64,000 nt of DNA from Planctomycetaceae bacterium. Its GTDB lineage: Bacteria > Planctomycetota > Planctomycetia > Planctomycetales > Planctomycetaceae. This document shows positions 8,491 to 64,000 of this stretch, one piece after another. Where the stretch lies: assembly GCA_021732845.1 (NCBI GenBank), contig JAKFUF010000022.1, forward strand, positions 62,001 to 126,000, written 5' to 3'. The stretch's first letter is position 1. Each line of letters opens with the position of its first letter. The position numbers and the translations under genes are program-made. The notes under the pieces are model-generated. The model did no database searches, was not told the origin of the DNA, and was given only the letters and a program-made list of their open reading frames with translations.

Positions 8491-8733
8491 GCCACCTCAT
8501 CCGACAGGGTCGTACTCAGGACCGTGAAATCAATAAAGGCGACATTCCGCCGCCCTGCACCGCGGGGCGGACCACGGCCGCCACCGCAGCGAGTTCACCT
8601 CGTGGTGAACAGGCCTGGTGCACTACGCGGCATGCCGCAGTTCGACGTCTTGCAGAGGCCCGAATCCACGGAGGCCAAACGCGGTGGGGAATGTGAGACA
8701 GAAGTTCCACCTTGAGTGTTGGCAAAACGGGCG

Positions 8734-8806
8734 GCAACTGACACGAATCGAACGTGCATCTTCGTATTTGGAGTACGACGTCCTACCCGTTGGACGACAG
8801 TTGCCA
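8734..8806 (-). tRNA. tRNA gene A1, anticodon CCA (Trp-type codon reading)
   Basis: 73 nt on the minus strand fold as a canonical cloverleaf: acceptor GCAACUG/CAGUUGC, U8, D-stem GUCC/GGAC with A14, GG and A21 in the loop, anticodon stem UCGUA/UACGA with loop CUCCAAA (U33, anticodon CCA), 4-nt variable region, T-stem GCACG/CGUGU with loop UUCGAUU. An extra G at -1 faces C73, as in bacterial tRNA-His. CCA is not encoded. It is identical to the gene at 9718-9790 except for the three anticodon bases. Functional charging is uncertain. Confidence 0.75.
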
Positions 8807-8811
8807 AAATG

Positions 8812-8884
8812 AGAACCGACAGGAATCGAACCTGGATCTCTGACCTTTGGGGGTAGCGGCCTACCAGTTGGCCGACGGTCCGCG
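8812..8884 (-). tRNA. tRNA-like gene B1, degenerate anticodon arm
   Basis: Starts 5 nt upstream of A1 in transcription order. The T-arm (CCAGG, loop UUCGAUU, CCUGU), D-arm (GGCC/GGCC with AACUGGUA) and most of the acceptor (GGACCG/CGGUUC) are good. The first acceptor pair is mismatched (C-U), and the anticodon arm CUACC...GUCAG has two mispairs and no U33. G-1 and C73 are again present. Probably a decaying or non-decoding tRNA; amino-acid identity cannot be assigned. Confidence 0.6.
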
Positions 8885-8927
8885 TTCAACTTCACCCTCC
8901 GTCTGTGGGACAGAGAGTGAAGGGAGG

Positions 8928-9518: not shown

Positions 9519-9717
9519 TGTCTGTCGGGAATTCCAAGAAACTGGCTCGATCGTGATTGTGATCGCTGCCTGCGTTGCAACAGAGTGGGTCGTGCACATT
9601 TGAAACAAGATCCTTTGTCACTTCACTCCTTTCGATACAGCGGTTTGGTGCCCTCATCCATGTGCCGACATACAATTCACGCCTATTGATGACGCGATCT
9701 CAAGCTTCAAAACAGGC

Positions 9718-9790
9718 GGCAACTGACACGAATCGAACGTGCATCTTCGTATTCGTAGTACGACGTCCTACCCGTTGGACGACAGTTGCC
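9718..9790 (-). tRNA. tRNA gene A2, anticodon ACG (Arg-type codon reading)
   Basis: Same 73-nt cloverleaf as the gene at 8734, with anticodon loop CUACGAA (U33, anticodon ACG). All other 70 positions are the same. The G-1:C73 pair is kept; ACG would normally belong to tRNA-Arg, which carries A or G at 73 in most bacteria, so the identity elements conflict. No encoded CCA. Confidence 0.78.
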
Positions 9791-9794
9791 AAAA

Positions 9795-9866
9795 GCAAAC
9801 CGGCAGGAATCGAACCTGCATCTCTGACCTTTGGGGTAGCGGCTTACCAGTTGGCCGACGGTCCGC
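9795..9866 (-). tRNA. tRNA-like gene B2, degenerate anticodon arm
   Basis: 72 nt, starting 5 nt before A2 in transcription order. The acceptor pairs fully if G-U pairs are allowed (CGGACCG/CGGUUUG), and the T-arm is GCAGG, UUCGAUU, CCUGC-type. The D-stem has an A-C mismatch. The anticodon region is 16 nt, one short of the standard 17, without U33. Likely not a decoding tRNA. Confidence 0.6.
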
Positions 9867-10008
9867 ATTCAACTTCACCAGGGGATCCTCCGCTGAGGCA
9901 CAACCGCATCGGCATTCATGCTGGCTTCTCAGCTCGGACTTGGTCTTAATCTCCCGACCTCAAACCTGATCATGGGGGCGCAATCCCGCAGTAGGCACCG
10001 AGAACAGG

Positions 10009-15123: not shown

Positions 15124-15609
15124 ATGGCACGGCGAAAGACCTGGCGGGAAAAGCTCGCCGACGACAAGGATCTGCCCAAGGTCATCACGCTGGCGGAAAA
15201 AGATGTCAAGAAGTGGGGAACGGGAACGATGGTCGTCCCCGCCCCGCGCGAGGTCGACGCACTCATGAAATCGGTCCCGTTTGGCAGTTTGATCACCATT
15301 CAAGAACTGCGGCAGGCCCTGGCGACCGCGCATCAAACCACGCAGTGCTGCCCGCTGACCACCGGAATTTTCGCCTGGATTGCAGCCCACGCCGCCGAAG
15401 AATCACTGGCCGCCGGCGACACCGAACCCACGCCTTACTGGCGGACCCTCAAGGCCGGCGGGGAGATCAACCCCAAGTACCCTGGCGGAGCCGAAGCGGC
15501 CAAAGCCCGGCTTGAAGCCGAAGGCCACCGCGTGGTCGCCCGGGGAAAACGCCTCGTGGTGGAGAACCATGAACAGCACCTGGCGACGCTGGAGCCGAAC
15601 CTCAAATAA
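15124..15609 (+). CDS. MGMT/ATL-like DNA-binding domain protein (tentative)
   Basis: A 161-residue soluble protein preceded by GGGAGGGG, giving a good ribosome site. The stretch VDALMKSVPFGSLITIQELRQAL followed by QCCPLTTGIFAWIAAHAA resembles the winged-helix and active-site region of O6-alkylguanine methyltransferase-like proteins, in which a PCHR motif carries the acceptor Cys. Here the equivalent reads CCPLTT, so it is not a canonical methyltransferase. I recall similar proteins being annotated as MGMT family, but the relation is uncertain by eye. Monocistronic; a palindromic repeat follows. Confidence 0.6.
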   Translation: MARRKTWREKLADDKDLPKVITLAEKDVKKWGTGTMVVPAPREVDALMKSVPFGSLITIQELRQALATAHQTTQCCPLTTGIFAWIAAHAAEESLAAGDTEPTPYWRTLKAGGEINPKYPGGAEAAKARLEAEGHRVVARGKRLVVENHEQHLATLEPNLK

Positions 15610-15676
15610 CGCTCAGATAAGACCTATCTTGGGCACCTATCAGAGAGCAATGATCTCCGATGGGAGCGATTGAGGG

Positions 15677-15785
15677 GAACCACGAATCTCACGAATAACA
15701 CGAATAAAAGCCGTTGACCACGCGGTCCGCGATTTCTGGCAGCAGTCTTATTCGTGAATATTCGTTAGATTCGTGGTTAAATTTG
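15677..15785. repeat. Family A palindromic intergenic repeat, copy 3
   Basis: Left arm AACCACGAAT with three ACGAAT units at 9-bp spacing, then AAAAG; right arm of ATTCGT units ending TTCGTGGTTAA. It lies between convergent genes (MGMT-like protein and DUF1501). Confidence 0.9.
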
Positions 15786-15834
15786 CATTGTAAATTCTGC
15801 GAGGAGTGGGCCACGCACCAGCGACCCTTGGCAC

Positions 15835-17268
15835 CTATCGCAGGATCTCCGTCACCACGCGGTTTGTCTGCTTCTCCAGCAGAGACGCTTCCTGCAGGTT
15901 GCGGACGAAGGTGACCTTGGCGGGGTCCAGGCCGAAGAGGTGGAACAGGGTGGCGTGGTAGTCGTTGTGGGTCACGATGTTCTCGGCCGCCTTGTGGCCC
16001 ATTTCGTCCGTCTTGCCGAAGGTGCAGCCGGCTTTGACGCCGCCGCCGGCGAGCCACATGGTGAAGCCGTACGTGTTGTGGTCACGGCCGACACTGTCGG
16101 GGCCGGCATCGTTTTGAATCACGGGCAACCGGCCCATTTCGCCGCCCCAATGGACGAGCGTGCTGTCGAGCAGGCCGCGTGCCTTGAGGTCAGTCACCAG
16201 CGCCGCTGACGGCTTGTCGACTTTCTTGCAGGCGTTCGGCAGAGCCGTCCGGATGGCACCGTGATGATCCCAGAACTGATACCGCGTGTAGAGCTGCACA
16301 AACCGCACGCCGCGTTCCACCAGCCGCCGGGCGATCAGGCAGCGTGTCCCATAATCCTTGGTGGCTGGTTCATCAATGCCGTACATCTTCTGCGTGGCTT
16401 CCGTCTCGCCGCTGATATCCACCGCCTCTTTCGCGGCGGACTGCATCCGCGCCGCGAGTTCATAGCTCGCGATCCGCGCGTCGAGATCGTGCTCGCCAGG
16501 ATGGCGGGCAAGGTGCGCCTTGTTCAACTGCGAGAGGTAGGACAGGTACGCTTCCTGCGGCGCGCCGCGCAGATACTCTGGCGGATCCAGATTCAAAATC
16601 CGTGGCTCACGCGGCCGGATCACCGTCCCCTGAAACAACGAGGGCAGCCACCCATTCGACCAGTTCTCGACCCCCATCACCGGCAGTCCGTCCGGGTCGG
16701 TCAACACGACGAACGCCGGCAGGTTCTGGCTTTCGCTGCCCAGCCCGTAGCTCATCCAGCTTCCCAGCGCGGGGCGTCCAGAGACCGTCAGACCGTTGTT
16801 GAGGGCATTAATCGACTGGCCGTGATTGTTCACGCCCGTCTGCATCGAGCGGATGATGGTCACGTCGTCGACGATGCCGGCGAAGTGCGGCAGCAGTTCC
16901 GAAACGTCGGCTCCGCACTGCCCATGCTTGTCGAATTTCCACGGGCACCCGAGGATCTTGGAACTGGCCTGCGCCGCGTTGTCGTGCTTGATGTCGCCCT
17001 GGAATTTTGTGCCATCCAGCCGGTTCAGCTCCGGCTTTGGGTCGAACAAGTCGATGTGGCTTGGCCCGCCCTGCATGAACAGGGAGATCATCGCCTTCGC
17101 CTTGGGGGCAAAATGCGGGGTCTTCGACCGCAGGTCGAATTTCCGTTTCTCGAGGTCGGGTTTGACCGGTGCCCCTTCCGCCCGGTCCGCCTGGAGCAGG
17201 TGTGCCAGAGCCACGGTTCCCACGCCGAACGTGGCTGCTCCCAGAAACTCCCGGCGACTGGCTGGCAT
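15835..17268 (-). CDS. DUF1501 Tat-exported protein
   Basis: A 477-residue protein. The ATG at 17268 is preceded by GGAG and begins a twin-arginine leader (SRREFLGAATFGVGTVALAH). DUF1501 hallmarks follow: FMQGGPSHIDLFDPKP, DVSELLPHFAGIVDDVTIIRSM, NNHGQSINALNNG, and late DHHGAIR and GRDHNTYGF. The family is distantly related to alkaline-phosphatase-superfamily enzymes and is greatly expanded in planctomycetes, usually beside DUF1549/DUF1553 cytochrome-like genes. No such partner is adjacent here. Function is unproven; export by Tat and a hydrolase fold are reasonable. Confidence 0.93.
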   Translation of the reverse strand: MPASRREFLGAATFGVGTVALAHLLQADRAEGAPVKPDLEKRKFDLRSKTPHFAPKAKAMISLFMQGGPSHIDLFDPKPELNRLDGTKFQGDIKHDNAAQASSKILGCPWKFDKHGQCGADVSELLPHFAGIVDDVTIIRSMQTGVNNHGQSINALNNGLTVSGRPALGSWMSYGLGSESQNLPAFVVLTDPDGLPVMGVENWSNGWLPSLFQGTVIRPREPRILNLDPPEYLRGAPQEAYLSYLSQLNKAHLARHPGEHDLDARIASYELAARMQSAAKEAVDISGETEATQKMYGIDEPATKDYGTRCLIARRLVERGVRFVQLYTRYQFWDHHGAIRTALPNACKKVDKPSAALVTDLKARGLLDSTLVHWGGEMGRLPVIQNDAGPDSVGRDHNTYGFTMWLAGGGVKAGCTFGKTDEMGHKAAENIVTHNDYHATLFHLFGLDPAKVTFVRNLQEASLLEKQTNRVVTEILR

Positions 17269-42675: not shown

Positions 42676-43431
42676 ATGCTCGTATTGTCACGTCGTCCCG
42701 GACAGAAGGTTGTATTTCCTGGCCTCGGGATCGAGATCGAAGTTCTCCGCTCACGCGGAGCAGTCACCCGGTTGGGAATCGAAGCCCCCGAAGATGTGGT
42801 GGTCCTCCGTGAAGAGATCATGGACCGCTCGCCGCGTGAAGCGGCACAGCCGGCTGGGATGTCCGCCGCCGAGCGTGAGCAGCGCCATGCGTTGAATAAC
42901 CAACTCAACCAGATGATGCTCAAGCTGGAGCTTCTGAAGGGGCAGTTGGAACAGGGGCAGGCTGCCGACTCGGAACACCGTCTGGATGAGGTGCTGGCGG
43001 AACTCTCCAAACTGGAGCAATCCACGGCCGACGCGCCGGTGGTGAAAAACACCTCGCCCAAAGTGCTGATTGTCGAAGACGAAGCCAACGAGCGGGAACT
43101 GCTCGCCTCGTGCCTGCGGCTGCGGGGGCTCGACGTGGCCACGGCTGGCAACGGCCGGGAAGCGTTTGATTACCTGCACGACCACGAGCTGCCGGACCTG
43201 ATTCTGCTGGACATGCGGATGCCCGATGTCGACGGCCCCACCTTCCTGAAGTCCGTCCGCGACAGTGTGCGGCTGCATGATTTGCGGGTCTTCGCCGTCA
43301 GTGGCTCATCGCGGAACGAATTCGCCGGGAATCCGCTGCCGCTCGACGGCTGGATTTCCAAGCCCGTCCGCATTGATGCCCTGCTGCAGGCGGTGCGGGT
43401 GGAAACACCGTCGGTGGCTGCCACGGCCTGA
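42676..43431 (+). CDS. CsrA-coiled-coil-receiver fusion protein
   Basis: A 251-residue protein. Residues 1-55 are a full CsrA: MLVLSRRPGQKVV, IEIEVLRSRGAVTRLGIEAP and VVVLREEI, keeping Leu4 and the Arg of the RNA-binding VxxREEI strand. Residues about 62-120 are helical (HALNNQLNQMMLKLELL, a sequence that looks like a His-containing dimerisation helix). Residues about 129-245 are a response-regulator receiver (VLIVEDEANE, phospho-acceptor Asp about 179 in LILLDMRMPD, VSGSS, and Lys in WISKPVR). Phosphorylation may therefore control mRNA binding. A normal CsrA has about 60-75 residues. The neighbouring hybrid kinase is a candidate partner. Confidence 0.95.
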   Translation: MLVLSRRPGQKVVFPGLGIEIEVLRSRGAVTRLGIEAPEDVVVLREEIMDRSPREAAQPAGMSAAEREQRHALNNQLNQMMLKLELLKGQLEQGQAADSEHRLDEVLAELSKLEQSTADAPVVKNTSPKVLIVEDEANERELLASCLRLRGLDVATAGNGREAFDYLHDHELPDLILLDMRMPDVDGPTFLKSVRDSVRLHDLRVFAVSGSSRNEFAGNPLPLDGWISKPVRIDALLQAVRVETPSVAATA

Positions 43432-43816
43432 GGTCTTGAGAATCTCAAATTTCCGATCCGAAATTTCACAGTCTGCAGGCTGATGCCCCCTCGTTACCCG
43501 GTGGGCAGCACCTTCGGATCACGCTTGGTGAACGGTCAATGTGCAGCCACATCGAACTGTCAACTGAGCTTCAATGGCGCAAACGTAACTGTTGCCCGAA
43601 GTGGGAATACTGCGAAAACGCATTTTTCTGTGAAATTTGAAATCTGAAATTTGAAATTCCGTGAAACAGAGACGGCCGATTTTTGACGGAGAACTCACAT
43701 TTGACGATTCCGACAAAAGTTGATTTCAAATTTCAAATTTCACAGTCTGTGCGACCACATCGAACACTCGGCCACGCCTTCGCAGCGAAGTACGTAACTC
43801 TCGTCCTGTCCATGGC
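43432..43816. repeat. Gap with AT-rich repeats (AAATTTGAAATT family)
   Basis: Three segments (43441-43478, 43630-43665, 43722-43756) share TTGAAATTTGAAATT or its reverse complement next to CACAGTCTG. Related short pieces occur near 1830. No gene in this gap. Confidence 0.75.
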
Positions 43817-47358: not shown

Positions 47359-48474
47359 ATGCCATCGGCAGCCACCCCCACGAAGACTTCGTCCTCCCGA
47401 TTTGCGACCGCCGTCCTGGCCTCCGTGGCTCTGGTCGCAGGCTATGGCGTCACCCGAGTCATTGACTCCGTGCAGTACGAACGGTTGGAAGGCAGCATCG
47501 CGGCGCGGCGGACCACCGTAGTTTCCGGCCGGCTGGCAACCATCACGAAAATCCTGGTCACCGAGGGCAGCGCTGTCACTCTGGGGCAGCCACTGGTGGA
47601 GCTGCATGACCATGGACTGGCGGCCCGGGTCGAAATTGCCGAACGGCAGCTCTATCGGCTCCAGGTCGAGCTGGCCGCCACCGAGGCCCGCAAGGCAATC
47701 GAACTCACGGCCCAGGAACGGGTCCTCAACACGGAACTGTTTGACGCCGAGCTGAAACTGACAGAATTTCAACAGCAAAAATTCAACAGCCAGGTGGAAA
47801 ACGTGGCTTGGCAGCAGTTGGCCAAAAACCCCGCAACGACCCTTGAAGAGGCGTTCCGAACCGACAACGCCGAACCGTTGATCCTGCCCTCGCTCGTCGC
47901 TGAAAACGTTCGCCAGGAAGAGCTTCGCGTCCGGGCCGTGCTGCGGCAGGGAGCCGCGCAAAATGCCCAGGAAGTCTTGTCCGTTCGCATTGAACTTTGT
48001 GAGCAGCGGCGGCGGAAGGTCCAGCAGGAACTGATGGAACTGCCGAACCGGCTGGAAAAATCGCTCGGAATTGAAGCGCTGAAGGCGCAGTTGGCTGAGG
48101 CCCAGACCTGTCTCGAAACGCTTAAACAACAGCCACAGGACTTCACGCTGACCGCCACCGAGTCTGGCCGGGTGGCGAGCATCCGCCGGAACGTGGGCGA
48201 CAGCGTGCGGACAGAGGATCCGATCATCCAGACGGTGGATGAAACCCGCCCGCTGGTCCAGCTTCCCTTGGTCTCGCGAAACCTGCCCGACTTCGCCAAA
48301 GGCGTGGACCTCGAAGTCCGCTTCCCCGACGGCAGCCTCCGCAAGGCCCGCGTGGGCGAAATCGCCCTGGTGGCCAGCGCCACCGGGACATTGACCGTCC
48401 CCGTGGAACCCGCCGGCGCGGTGTGGCCACGGATGCCGGATGGAGCGACCGTCGAGGTGCGGCGGCGACGTTGA
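47359..48474 (+). CDS. HlyD-family membrane fusion protein
   Basis: A 371-residue protein after AAGGATC. An N-terminal hydrophobic segment (FATAVLASVALVAGYGV) anchors it. Then come a lipoyl-like half (VVSGRLATITKILVTEGSAVTLGQPLVEL), a long coiled-coil hairpin (about residues 90-235), the second lipoyl half (LTATESGRVASIRRNVGDSV) and a beta-barrel. The layout fits adaptors of ABC or RND exporters. No transporter gene follows; instead an ART-like/partner module sits between this gene and the SpoIIE-type phosphatase. Cargo unknown. Confidence 0.87.
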   Translation: MPSAATPTKTSSSRFATAVLASVALVAGYGVTRVIDSVQYERLEGSIAARRTTVVSGRLATITKILVTEGSAVTLGQPLVELHDHGLAARVEIAERQLYRLQVELAATEARKAIELTAQERVLNTELFDAELKLTEFQQQKFNSQVENVAWQQLAKNPATTLEEAFRTDNAEPLILPSLVAENVRQEELRVRAVLRQGAAQNAQEVLSVRIELCEQRRRKVQQELMELPNRLEKSLGIEALKAQLAEAQTCLETLKQQPQDFTLTATESGRVASIRRNVGDSVRTEDPIIQTVDETRPLVQLPLVSRNLPDFAKGVDLEVRFPDGSLRKARVGEIALVASATGTLTVPVEPAGAVWPRMPDGATVEVRRRR

Positions 48475-61531: not shown

Positions 61532-61647
61532 CGGAGCGGAAGGCTGCCCCCTCATACACATGGGAAGCGGATGCTTAAGGCTGCTTCGGTTAGGATCTGA
61601 CCTGGTTCACATGCCCCCATTGTACTCGGGGACAGCCTACCGCTCCG
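61532..61647 (-). ncRNA. ffs: Signal recognition particle RNA (small bacterial type)
   Basis: On the minus strand, GGAGCGGTAGGCTGTCCCC pairs with GGGGGCAGCCTTCCGCTCC as the closing stem. The apical domain IV carries CCAGGTCAGATCC-UAAC-CGAAGCAGCC: the conserved GGUCAG and AGCAG sides and a URRC-type tetraloop. About 115 nt. It binds Ffh for membrane targeting. The gap from 61281 to 61531 shows nothing else. Confidence 0.93.
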
Positions 61648-62166
61648 AAGCACGGAGCGGAACACGCGATTATCGCGTCGATTCCGACAGCGTCAAGCAA
61701 CGCGTCGAAGTTCTCTTCAAAGAGCCACCATTGAGACTCGAACTCAAGACCTACGCTTTACGAAAGCGTTTTTTTGTTGCAGGAAAATGCACGATGTTGC
61801 AGAAACGTTGCACAGAGTTGCATCCACTCCAAAAAACCGGTGGCAAAATGCGCCCGGATGTCACGGCCAACTAACGAATTTACTAACGCGCTCTTTTCGA
61901 GTTGAGATTGGCCGGCGACGCTCGTCATCGCCCCTGCGCTTCCAGCTCGGCGATCGGCCCGAACGGGCAACGCTTTTTGTTAGTAGATCGGCCCGCCCGA
62001 AAAATTTCTCAAAATATTTTTCGCGCCTCTACGCGCCTCTATGCGCCCCTACGCACTTCCAGCCGAACGCGACCACTCCGAGAACGGCAAATCCGCGCAA
62101 GCCCTATTGTTGCAGGGTGTTTCGCCGCTTAGATTGAACCCACGCAAACGCAACTGGAGGCAACAA
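61648..62166. other. Gap between SRP RNA and the phage-like segment
   Basis: About 500 bases without a supported gene. A CGCGCCTCTACGCGCCTCTATGCG stretch near 62020-62045 contains three tandem 10-bp GCGCCTCTAC-like units. No attachment site could be identified by eye. Confidence 0.5.
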
Positions 62167-62427
62167 ATGGTCGCGACAAAAACAAAGAAGCGGACGGCTC
62201 GGCCAGCGACAAAAGGCCAGTCAAAGGCTGACAGGAGATGGCCGATCGACGGCAGCGCCACGTACCCGGAAGCTGCCGCATTTCTCCAAGTCCACCGCAC
62301 CACGGTTTGGCGGCTTGTCACCGCGAAGATGCTGACGGCGGTACCGGTCGGCAAGCGTGGGAAACGGATCGCCTGGGCTGTGCTGCACGCATACGCCGAA
62401 GGGCAAGACACGGCAAAGTCAGCCTGA
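62167..62427 (+). CDS. Excisionase-type HTH protein
   Basis: An 86-residue basic protein after a GGAGG box. The core ATYPEAAAFLQVHRTTVWRLVTAKMLTAVPVGKRGKRIAW (in parts) is the MerR/excisionase-like winged HTH used by phage and integrative elements to control excision. An N-terminal KKRTARPATKGQ tail is basic. It opens the phage-like segment; its end overlaps the beginning of the structured RNA region. Confidence 0.8.
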   Translation: MVATKTKKRTARPATKGQSKADRRWPIDGSATYPEAAAFLQVHRTTVWRLVTAKMLTAVPVGKRGKRIAWAVLHAYAEGQDTAKSA

Positions 62428-62877
62428 GGGAAAGCACCTGGCCGGCCGAGCGGGTGGTGTCGCTCATGGGAAGTCAGCGGAAGCTTCCCAGGCCGCTTCG
62501 AGGACTCTGAACCGAGTCAGACGGAATCGAAGCGGCGGCCAGCCCAGGTTTTCAATACCTACCGCGAGAGGCCCTGTGGCGGTCGGAACTCCAACGTGGA
62601 GGAATGACACGAGGGCATCTGATGGCAACCGCCGGAAGCCATCAGCGGGGCGCAGTGGGAAAGCCTCCACTGTCGCCGACGACAGCAGGTTATCGGGGAA
62701 CGCCTGCGGTTCACCCCTAAGCCACCAACGTGGTGGAAGCAAGGTGACGAGTGAAGAGCGGAGGCTTGACGATAGTGCTCAGCCGGAGAGACGGCAGGGC
62801 GTCATGCGGGGATCTTCCAACGGATAGGATACCGGTCGCCAAAGCCGGAGATGTTGGTTCGAATCCAGCTCCCACGC
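62428..62877 (+). ncRNA. Large structured RNA with tRNA-like 3' end (class unknown)
   Basis: A gene-free stretch packed with perfect hairpins: TGGGAAG/CTTCCCA (about 62467-62490); GCCGCTTCGA/TCGAAGCGGC (62492-62537) enclosing GACTC/GAGTC; CTCCA/TGGAG; CTGATGGC/GCCATCAG (62619-62645); CAGTGG/CCACTG (62653-62672); CCACCA/TGGTGG; GCCG/CGGC. GCAGG/CCTGC with GGGG in the loop and CCCC downstream could form a pseudoknot (62684-62717). The 3' end is a tRNA-like fold. It is not a tmRNA, RNase P or group II domain that I recognise. The 5' boundary is a guess. Ornate phage-linked RNAs such as GOLLD or ROOL are the nearest analogy. Confidence 0.7.
62806..62877 (+). tRNA. tRNA-like domain, CCA at anticodon position, G33
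   Basis: 72 nt with canonical spacing: U8, D-stem UUCC/GGAU with A14 and A21, anticodon stem CCGGU/GCCGG, loop CGCCAAA, T-stem GUUGG/CCAGC, loop UUCGAAU. The acceptor GCGGGGA/UCCCACGC pairs only if A70 is bulged, giving G1:C73. Position 33 is G not U. Probably not a normal decoding tRNA. Confidence 0.6.
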
Positions 62878-63047
62878 AATCGTGATCGAAGCCAGGACTG
62901 CAGGCGTGTAGATAAGAGCAGCAGCCAGCCAGCGCTACGCGCGGCCAACGAATCCTCTCCACCGGTCACGGTTCCACCCCCATTCCCTTTTCTGCGATCG
63001 CGGTGCGCCCATGCATCCCGAGACGGCACGAATGAGAAGGAAACTTC

Positions 63048-63263
63048 ATGAGCCACGCGCCGCCCGACAAATCAACCGGCGAAGCCACCTGCAAAGAATG
63101 GGTCAAGCGGCCACCGTTCGAGCAGCTCCCGGACCACGTCAAACAGGAATGGGCGCAGCTCGAACAGCAGATCGCCGAAAGCGTCGGATTTCAACGCCGG
63201 CCCTACGGCTCCGGACCGATCGGCGAACCGACGGTCGACGAGCTTCCCAACGGGGTCCATTGA
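63048..63263 (+). CDS. Small hypothetical protein in the phage-like segment
   Basis: A 71-residue protein after AAGGAA, 10 bases before the next gene, so likely in one operon with it. Polar, with HVKQEWAQLEQQIAESVGF as a probable helix and no known motif. Context suggests an early phage or element gene. Confidence 0.65.
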   Translation: MSHAPPDKSTGEATCKEWVKRPPFEQLPDHVKQEWAQLEQQIAESVGFQRRPYGSGPIGEPTVDELPNGVH

Positions 63264-63273
63264 GGGAAGCGCA

Positions 63274-64000
63274 ATGAGCTGGACCATCGTCTACATCGCC
63301 GGCAAGTACGGCGAGCGATTCGCCAAAGTTAAACCATTCACCATCGCGAGCACCCAGATGAACAACCAAGCCCACAGCCACGAACTCAGCACACTCCCCG
63401 AGCCACGGCAAATCGACGAGATCATTGCCGGGGCACAAACGACCCTCGCCGAAGCGAAGGGGTTCGCCCAGGTCATCACGCTGGCCCGCGTGATGAACAC
63501 GCTCCGGGAGGCCCTCGACCCGTTCATGGACGAGATCGTCAAATTGCAAAACACCCGACTCGGGTTCCAGACGGACCGGGAGAAGGGTTACCCGAAAGAG
63601 ATCGTCCGCGACTGCTGCATCGACCTGGTCATCGCCGGCGGACAACTGACCGGGAACGAGATGACGATCATCGGCGGCAACGCCTACCTCAACAAAGAGT
63701 TCTTCACCCGCAAGCTGCGCGAGTTTCCGGGCCTCAGCAATTTGGAAATGAAGCTGTTCGTTCCCCGGATGGACAAAGAAAACCCAGGGACGTCGCTCGT
63801 TCCAGCCCGCGCGTCATGGGTCATGAACGGCAGGTTCGAGGAAATCACGTTCTTCGCCAGCGACAAGGGCGACGAACGCATCCCCGTCCGCGTGAACGCC
63901 GGCCAGGGACCGGACGCGATTCAGGGTAAGGCGGACCGGAAGCTCAAATACCGCGTCTACCGCCGCCTGCTACGGCAAGAAAACTCGTTCGTGTCGCCGT
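63274..64000 (+). CDS. Phage-type protein (recombination-locus-associated), truncated at window end
   Basis: The frame from ATG 63274 stays open to base 64000 (242 codons). Translation by eye gives LREALDPFMDEIVKLQN, then TRLGFQTDREKGYPKEIVRDCCIDLVIAGGQLTGNEMTIIGGNAYLNKEFFTRKL (in parts), and VNAGQGPDAIQGKADRKLKYR. This resembles a protein common in phage and prophage recombination regions, often near RecT-like or exonuclease genes (GF.TDR....Y....V..CLI...LRG..P.GNEFNII.G..Y.TKEGF), though its function is not known to me. A prophage or integrative element continues beyond the window. Confidence 0.75.
   Translation, partial: MSWTIVYIAGKYGERFAKVKPFTIASTQMNNQAHSHELSTLPEPRQIDEIIAGAQTTLAEAKGFAQVITLARVMNTLREALDPFMDEIVKLQNTRLGFQTDREKGYPKEIVRDCCIDLVIAGGQLTGNEMTIIGGNAYLNKEFFTRKLREFPGLSNLEMKLFVPRMDKENPGTSLVPARASWVMNGRFEEITFFASDKGDERIPVRVNAGQGPDAIQGKADRKLKYRVYRRLLRQENSFVSP

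Follow-up and report, generated by a model that had tools for sequence, protein, structure and literature searches.

Organization of the locus

The window, by which we mean the whole 64,000-nucleotide stretch of DNA that was analysed, corresponds to C4:62001-126000 of a Planctomycetaceae assembly of 9.25 Mb, and the region under study (62428-62877) lies within the left end of a prophage, flanked by an excisionase-type gene and the early genes. The features of the locus are as follows.

61723-61780, minus strand: truncated 3' part of a tRNA, anticodon CGT by eye, without a D arm (RF00005, 27.2 bits; gathering score 29)
62167-62427, plus strand: excisionase-type helix-turn-helix gene, whose stop codon directly abuts the RNA region
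62428-62800, plus strand: candidate structured RNA body of 373 nt, ends approximate (fold, hairpins, GGAA tetramers, coding scores)
62436-62549, plus strand: predicted 5' domain, a closing stem with hairpins 62448-62465, 62467-62490 and 62492-62536 (pair probabilities 0.78-1.00 in three fold contexts)
62589-62604, plus strand: hairpin CUCC-AACGU-GGAG with a GAA tail and flanking GGAA (repeat families D2/D4; stem probability 0.92-0.93)
62619-62645, plus strand: perfect hairpin of 8 bp whose loop has GGAA on the 3' side (fold, perfect-hairpin count)
62661-62767, plus strand: predicted 8-bp stem 62661-62668/62760-62767, formed over a long range, with the possible pseudoknot and the second of the AACGU hairpins inside it
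62685-62717, plus strand: possible H-type pseudoknot, 62685-62689/62703-62707 with 62695-62698/62714-62717
62723-62738, plus strand: hairpin CACC-AACGU-GGUG followed by GAA (U-A to A-U swap relative to 62589-62604)
62805-62878, plus strand: tRNA-like 3' domain, anticodon CCA (ARAGORN, RF00005)
63048: 71-aa frame, downstream of the RNA region
63274: 334-aa frame, without a Pfam or PHROG match

The excisionase-type gene matches PF12728 (HTH_17) at E=1.1e-5, with 26 bits against a cut-off of 27, and phrog_66 (excisionase and transcriptional regulator) at E=1.3e-4. Rightward of the 334-aa frame follow an HNH endonuclease, a replication-initiation protein of the phrog_2509 type and an IstB/DnaC-type ATPase, and TerS, TerL, portal and a Clp-type protease lie near the end of the contig, which does not include the right end of the prophage. 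The genes on both sides thus bear out the phage-like setting that a preliminary description of this DNA had proposed. The start of the prophage is placed near 61,720-61,780 because of the minus-strand 3' tRNA fragment found there, which is probably the left attachment site; no second or full copy of this fragment was found in the assembly. The interval from the attachment site to the excisionase gene contains short direct repeats (61937-61995 and about 62026-62060), among them one of 25 nt at 72% and units, picked out by eye, that resemble CGCGCCTCTA; these repeats are possible binding sites of integrase or excisionase. A candidate bacterial small SRP RNA (61540-61636, minus strand; 37.9 bits, Rfam cut-off 40) adjoins the left end of the prophage. 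Scanning 61700-63300 for sigma-70-type promoters, the only promoter type covered, returned none, and the same interval holds two terminator-like sites against 2.1 expected, neither of them inside or just 3' of the RNA.

Predicted fold of the RNA body

The 373-nt body folds to a computed energy of -170.7 kcal/mol, compared with -148.1 +/- 6.1 kcal/mol for its shuffles, only one of 400 of which is as low (z about -3.7). This fold leaves 117 bases unpaired, against a shuffle mean of 140, and none of the 400 shuffles has fewer; for the wider stretch 62420-62900 the z value is -3.2. The minus strand gives z values of -4.9 to -5.7, stronger than the -3.4 to -4.4 of the plus strand, and of 40 plus-strand stretches taken as background, two, at 15501-15873 (z -5.3) and 43401-43773 (z -4.7), equal or exceed the studied region.

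Individual elements of the fold were also compared with shuffled sequence. Counting as perfect any hairpin with at least five Watson-Crick pairs and a loop of 3-12, we found seven non-overlapping examples in 62428-62800, as had been claimed from a first reading of the sequence, whereas dinucleotide shuffles average 2.9 and reach seven in 12 of 1000 cases; extending the stretch to 62877 raises this to 38 of 1000. The nested long stem that had been described is likewise predicted, with a mean pair probability for 62661-62668/62760-62767 of 0.98 in the fold of 62420-62900 and 0.64 in that of 62428-62803; it shares bases with the hairpin 62653-62672, and the two are mutually exclusive. The motif of the H-type pseudoknot is present as described, but at chance level, since at least one such motif turns up in 252 of 1000 shuffles, and its CCCC strand (62714-62717) overlaps the helix 62711-62715/62743-62747.

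The hairpins 62589-62604 and 62723-62738 have the AACGU loop and the GAA tail in common and differ by a single compensatory swap of a base pair. Repeats of this kind (a 16-mer with at most two mismatches) are found at least once in 21 of 1000 shuffles. The swap, one paralogous event read from sequence, is suggestive and would favour structure at the RNA level. GOLLD and ROOL form homo-oligomeric nanocages; the palindromic ACGU loops of the two hairpins are at most compatible with kissing.

Loop composition and coding potential

Purines make up 0.78 of the unpaired bases in the body fold, compared with 0.73 +/- 0.01 in shuffles, a share reached by none of 400 shuffles and none of 124 background windows. 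The tetramer GGAA occurs ten times in 62428-62800, where 2.9 copies are expected and none of 5000 shuffles reaches ten, and eight of the ten copies are more open than the mean of the region. Only two of 1272 windows, counted over both strands, hold ten copies, one of which overlaps the studied region while the other lies at 47701-48073. Composition by itself is not enough to set the RNA apart, since the neighbouring excisionase gene has a purine content of 0.58, similar to the 0.59 of the RNA region; a scan for look-alikes by purine and GGAA content also returned purine-rich windows with many GGAA from other phage loci. RNAs of the CsrB/RsmZ type carry many ANGGA motifs, the CsrA-binding consensus. 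Such a CsrA-sequestering RNA was considered and rejected here, as one ANGGA was counted among 14 GGA.

That the region might instead encode a protein, in a 156-aa plus-strand frame (62357-62827) or a 92-aa minus-strand frame, was considered because these open frames exist. All six frames of 62428-62800 score negatively (-0.10 to -0.54 bits per codon), and the two named frames score -0.49 and -0.16, respectively, whereas the in-frame scores of 16 prophage genes, each held out of training, run from +0.07 to +0.54. For short genes the test is weak and leaves little margin: the excisionase gene in frame reaches only +0.07, below the best of 80 wrong-frame scores (+0.09). With this proviso, the earlier statement that no convincing protein is encoded here stands, and we regard a coding region as extremely improbable.

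The tRNA-like 3' end

The tRNA-like 3' domain that had been noted is recovered by two programs. ARAGORN reports a tRNA-Trp(CCA) at 62805-62877, and RF00005 matches 62809-62873 with 30.4 bits, above the gathering score of 29 and thus over the cut-off of the tRNA family, with a whole-genome E of 8.3e-4; this is the weakest match over the cut-off in the genome. Relatives carry tRNA-Gln(CTG) genes that match the T arm and 3' part of this domain and, judged by these likenesses, the end is a genuine tRNA relative. It is also degenerate: the ARAGORN drawing contains a C-A mismatch, weak acceptor ends and a G at position 33, and the local fold pairs the acceptor as UGCG-GGGA/UCCC-A-CGCA, with eight pairs, a bulged A62874 and pairing probabilities of 0.93-0.97. 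Elongator tRNAs normally have a 7-bp acceptor stem and U33, and the tRNA-like end departs from both, so it is probably not a working decoder. RF00005 found no other tRNA inside the RNA body, and a tmRNA was rejected on the ARAGORN and Rfam results.

Other tRNA-like loci were recorded along the way. The window contains a tandem duplication of a tRNA-like gene pair on the minus strand (8723-8896 and 9708-9879), in which the 87-nt first units are 97% identical but differ in anticodon (CCA and ACG), with scores of 27.4 and 32.7 bits for the second units. Elsewhere in the same genome, the end of a group II intron (RF00029, 54 bits) lies directly 5' of a tRNA array (L131, G000:C153, 43-122 and 174-2503).

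Searches for homologues

No homologue of the RNA was found by blastn, single-sequence covariance models or synteny. Rfam 15, applied to 62100-63100 at E up to 10, returned tRNA only, in agreement with the initial remark that there is no direct match to GOLLD or ROOL; group I and group II introns, also considered, gave no match at this threshold. With 62420-62900 as the blastn query, 10 of 99 relatives gave a match at E <= 0.01, the genome itself among them. Three of the other nine are tRNA-Gln(CTG) genes (L003, L005 and L007), and six are matches of 24-31 nt at loci without a tRNA gene, which by eye look coding. One of the tRNA-Gln loci, L003 (G015:C142), holds 28 tRNA genes within 3 kb. The RNA body alone, searched against 392 genomes of the phylum, matched one place besides itself (36 nt, G454), which we take for chance. 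A search of phages gave 26 records, and among the 20 matches listed all fall within the tRNA part; a plasmid search with the RNA region gave no match, and an exact 23-mer and an exact 19-mer from it are absent from the viral contigs searched.

The covariance models R1 and R2, run on genomes with the stricter filters of Infernal, returned comparably little. R1 found one other match in each of the sets of 297 class and 392 phylum genomes, at a site in G018 common to both (23.9 bits, E=0.085), where the middle of the model is missing. R2 found four others among the 392 phylum genomes (21.4-24.3 bits, E 0.013-0.070), which is no better than expected over 392. One of these, L221, lies near four tRNA genes in a Thr-Gly-Tyr-Thr cluster that is also present in the genome studied here, a likeness taken for coincidence. 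In a set of 82 sources, made up of the window, L013 and 80 TerL loci from viruses, R1 matched only itself, and R2 matched itself and three weak sites, the best of which (18.9 bits, E=0.084) is in the window. A pattern of two AACGU loops occurs in 106 viral stretches; R1 was run on 80 of these, with a best E of 0.77, and blastn on all 106 found no homologue.

The neighbouring genes were followed in the same manner. Neither the excisionase nor the 334-aa protein has relatives in the viral contigs, and the latter has none in genome contigs or phages. A search of 197 genomes for synteny of the neighbour proteins yielded one relative at 30%, whose upstream sequence is missing because it starts at a contig end, and the single viral relative of the replication protein is accompanied neither by a tRNA gene nor by a match to R1 or R2. 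A search of 216 other genomes found relatives of TerL, at up to 54% identity, in 44, and the sequence upstream of TerL was taken from 20 of these places, at most 20 kb each. In these stretches TerS has a relative in 17, the replication protein a weak relative in one and a 234-aa protein a weak relative in one, and tblastn with the excisionase, 71-aa and 334-aa proteins found no match. The best R1 score among them is 13.5 bits (E=1), and the best R2 score is 19.1 bits (E=0.024), with many broken pairs. Within the scope of these searches, the RNA-bearing early region appears to be private to this prophage.

Discussion

The DNA at 62428-62878 is non-coding, more folded than its shuffles, homologous to tRNA at its 3' end and situated in a prophage, and the tests of fold, hairpins, loop composition and coding partly support a structured non-coding RNA with a tRNA-homologous end. 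Our preferred interpretation, to which we assign a probability of about 0.4, is a non-coding structured plus-strand RNA of the prophage with a tRNA-like 3' end that RNase P probably processes. Such an RNA would be transcribed together with the excisionase-type gene or immediately after it, and its body of about 370 nt would fold into several hairpin domains with purine-rich loops. Host RNase P would recognise the degenerate tRNA and cut at about 62804/62805, setting the 3' end of the body in the way known for longer RNAs that mature at tRNA-like ends, and the body, once released, would serve as a stable structured RNA belonging to the early or lysogeny region. A precedent is offered by MALAT1 and MEN-beta (mascRNA/menRNA), in which, according to PMC11693755, a tRNA-like domain recognised by RNase P comes after a long RNA. 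The candidate studied here has the same succession of long body and tRNA-like domain, and RNase P cleavage would be its counterpart by analogy; unlike it, the precedents are human nuclear RNAs, and no homology is claimed.

The size, complexity, prophage home and tRNA neighbourhood of the candidate also resemble GOLLD and ROOL, described in PMC12286853 as large, elaborate RNAs that phages and prophages carry, often close to tRNA islands, and which are held together by kissing loops and A-minor contacts and, in GOLLD, have a linker that sometimes contains phage tRNAs. The RNA studied here is likewise prophage-borne, complex and beside a tRNA. It differs in its body of about 370 nt, where that source gives more than 800 nt for many GOLLD RNAs (PMC12286853), in the degenerate tRNA at its 3' end and in having no sequence or structure match in Rfam, and membership of GOLLD or ROOL is not supported. 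More generally, a highly divergent representative of one of the known large classes (GOLLD, ROOL, a group I or II intron, or an RNase P-like RNA) that escaped the Rfam models seems very improbable to us, given that only tRNA was matched across 62100-63100 while the same library detects the group II intron end elsewhere in the genome.

The absence of a homologue of the body from every collection searched is what would be expected if the locus were simply a decaying phage tRNA gene preceded by a spacer, containing no functional large RNA, and if the inverted repeats of the spacer were incidental or had a role at the DNA level, for instance as a replication origin or as protein-binding or attachment arms. 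Palindromic DNA would account for the stability of the minus strand and for the two equally extreme background stretches. The attachment site and the excisionase gene are close by, and the genome has low-scoring tRNAs in other places, some of them with a D arm of a similar TCCAACGG type, as in the tRNA arrays of phages and prophages. Here, in contrast to such arrays, there is a single tRNA-like unit with a bulged acceptor, placed after a long structured stretch. The purine bias of the loops and the enrichment of GGAA, both beyond composition-matched shuffles, together with the compensatory change that distinguishes the two AACGU hairpins, are better suited to RNA than to DNA, and we consider the decayed tRNA gene possible though on the unlikely side. 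The position of the RNA, directly upstream of the early genes and on the same strand as the phrog_2509-type protein and the IstB/DnaC-type ATPase, would also suit a structured leader of the early (replication) operon, which would govern the downstream genes by premature termination or antitermination and use the tRNA-like piece as a processing point. Satellite phage P4 provides a model for this in its CI RNA, which according to PMC4825925 is processed from an untranslated transcript, in the leader of the phage replication region, and terminates the replication operon. The resemblance is limited by the fact that CI acts as an antisense RNA that causes termination, whereas no terminator-like site was found within or just after our candidate in the scan of 61700-63300. 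The CI RNA is, moreover, several times shorter than the body studied here, which also counts against a leader, and we judge this explanation distinctly unlikely.

Counting the preferred RNase P-matured RNA and the operon leader together, it is somewhat more probable than an even chance that some structured plus-strand RNA is real. As it is without homologues, this RNA cannot be called a new class. The fullest version of the proposal, a new class of prophage RNA with a body of about 370 nt that is freed by RNase P at a degenerate 3' tRNA, whose hairpins are extended by GGAA purine tracts, which di- or oligomerises via its two palindromic ACGU loops and which is GOLLD/ROOL-like though unrelated to either, is in our estimate quite improbable. 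Should the locus be only a decayed tRNA behind palindromic DNA, it would be ordinary. If the RNA is real, it would be an unrelated newcomer among the few large structured RNAs of phages that lie close to tRNAs, coming from a prophage whose early region has no relative in the collections searched, and it would suggest the tRNA-like tail as a maturation signal for large phage RNAs.
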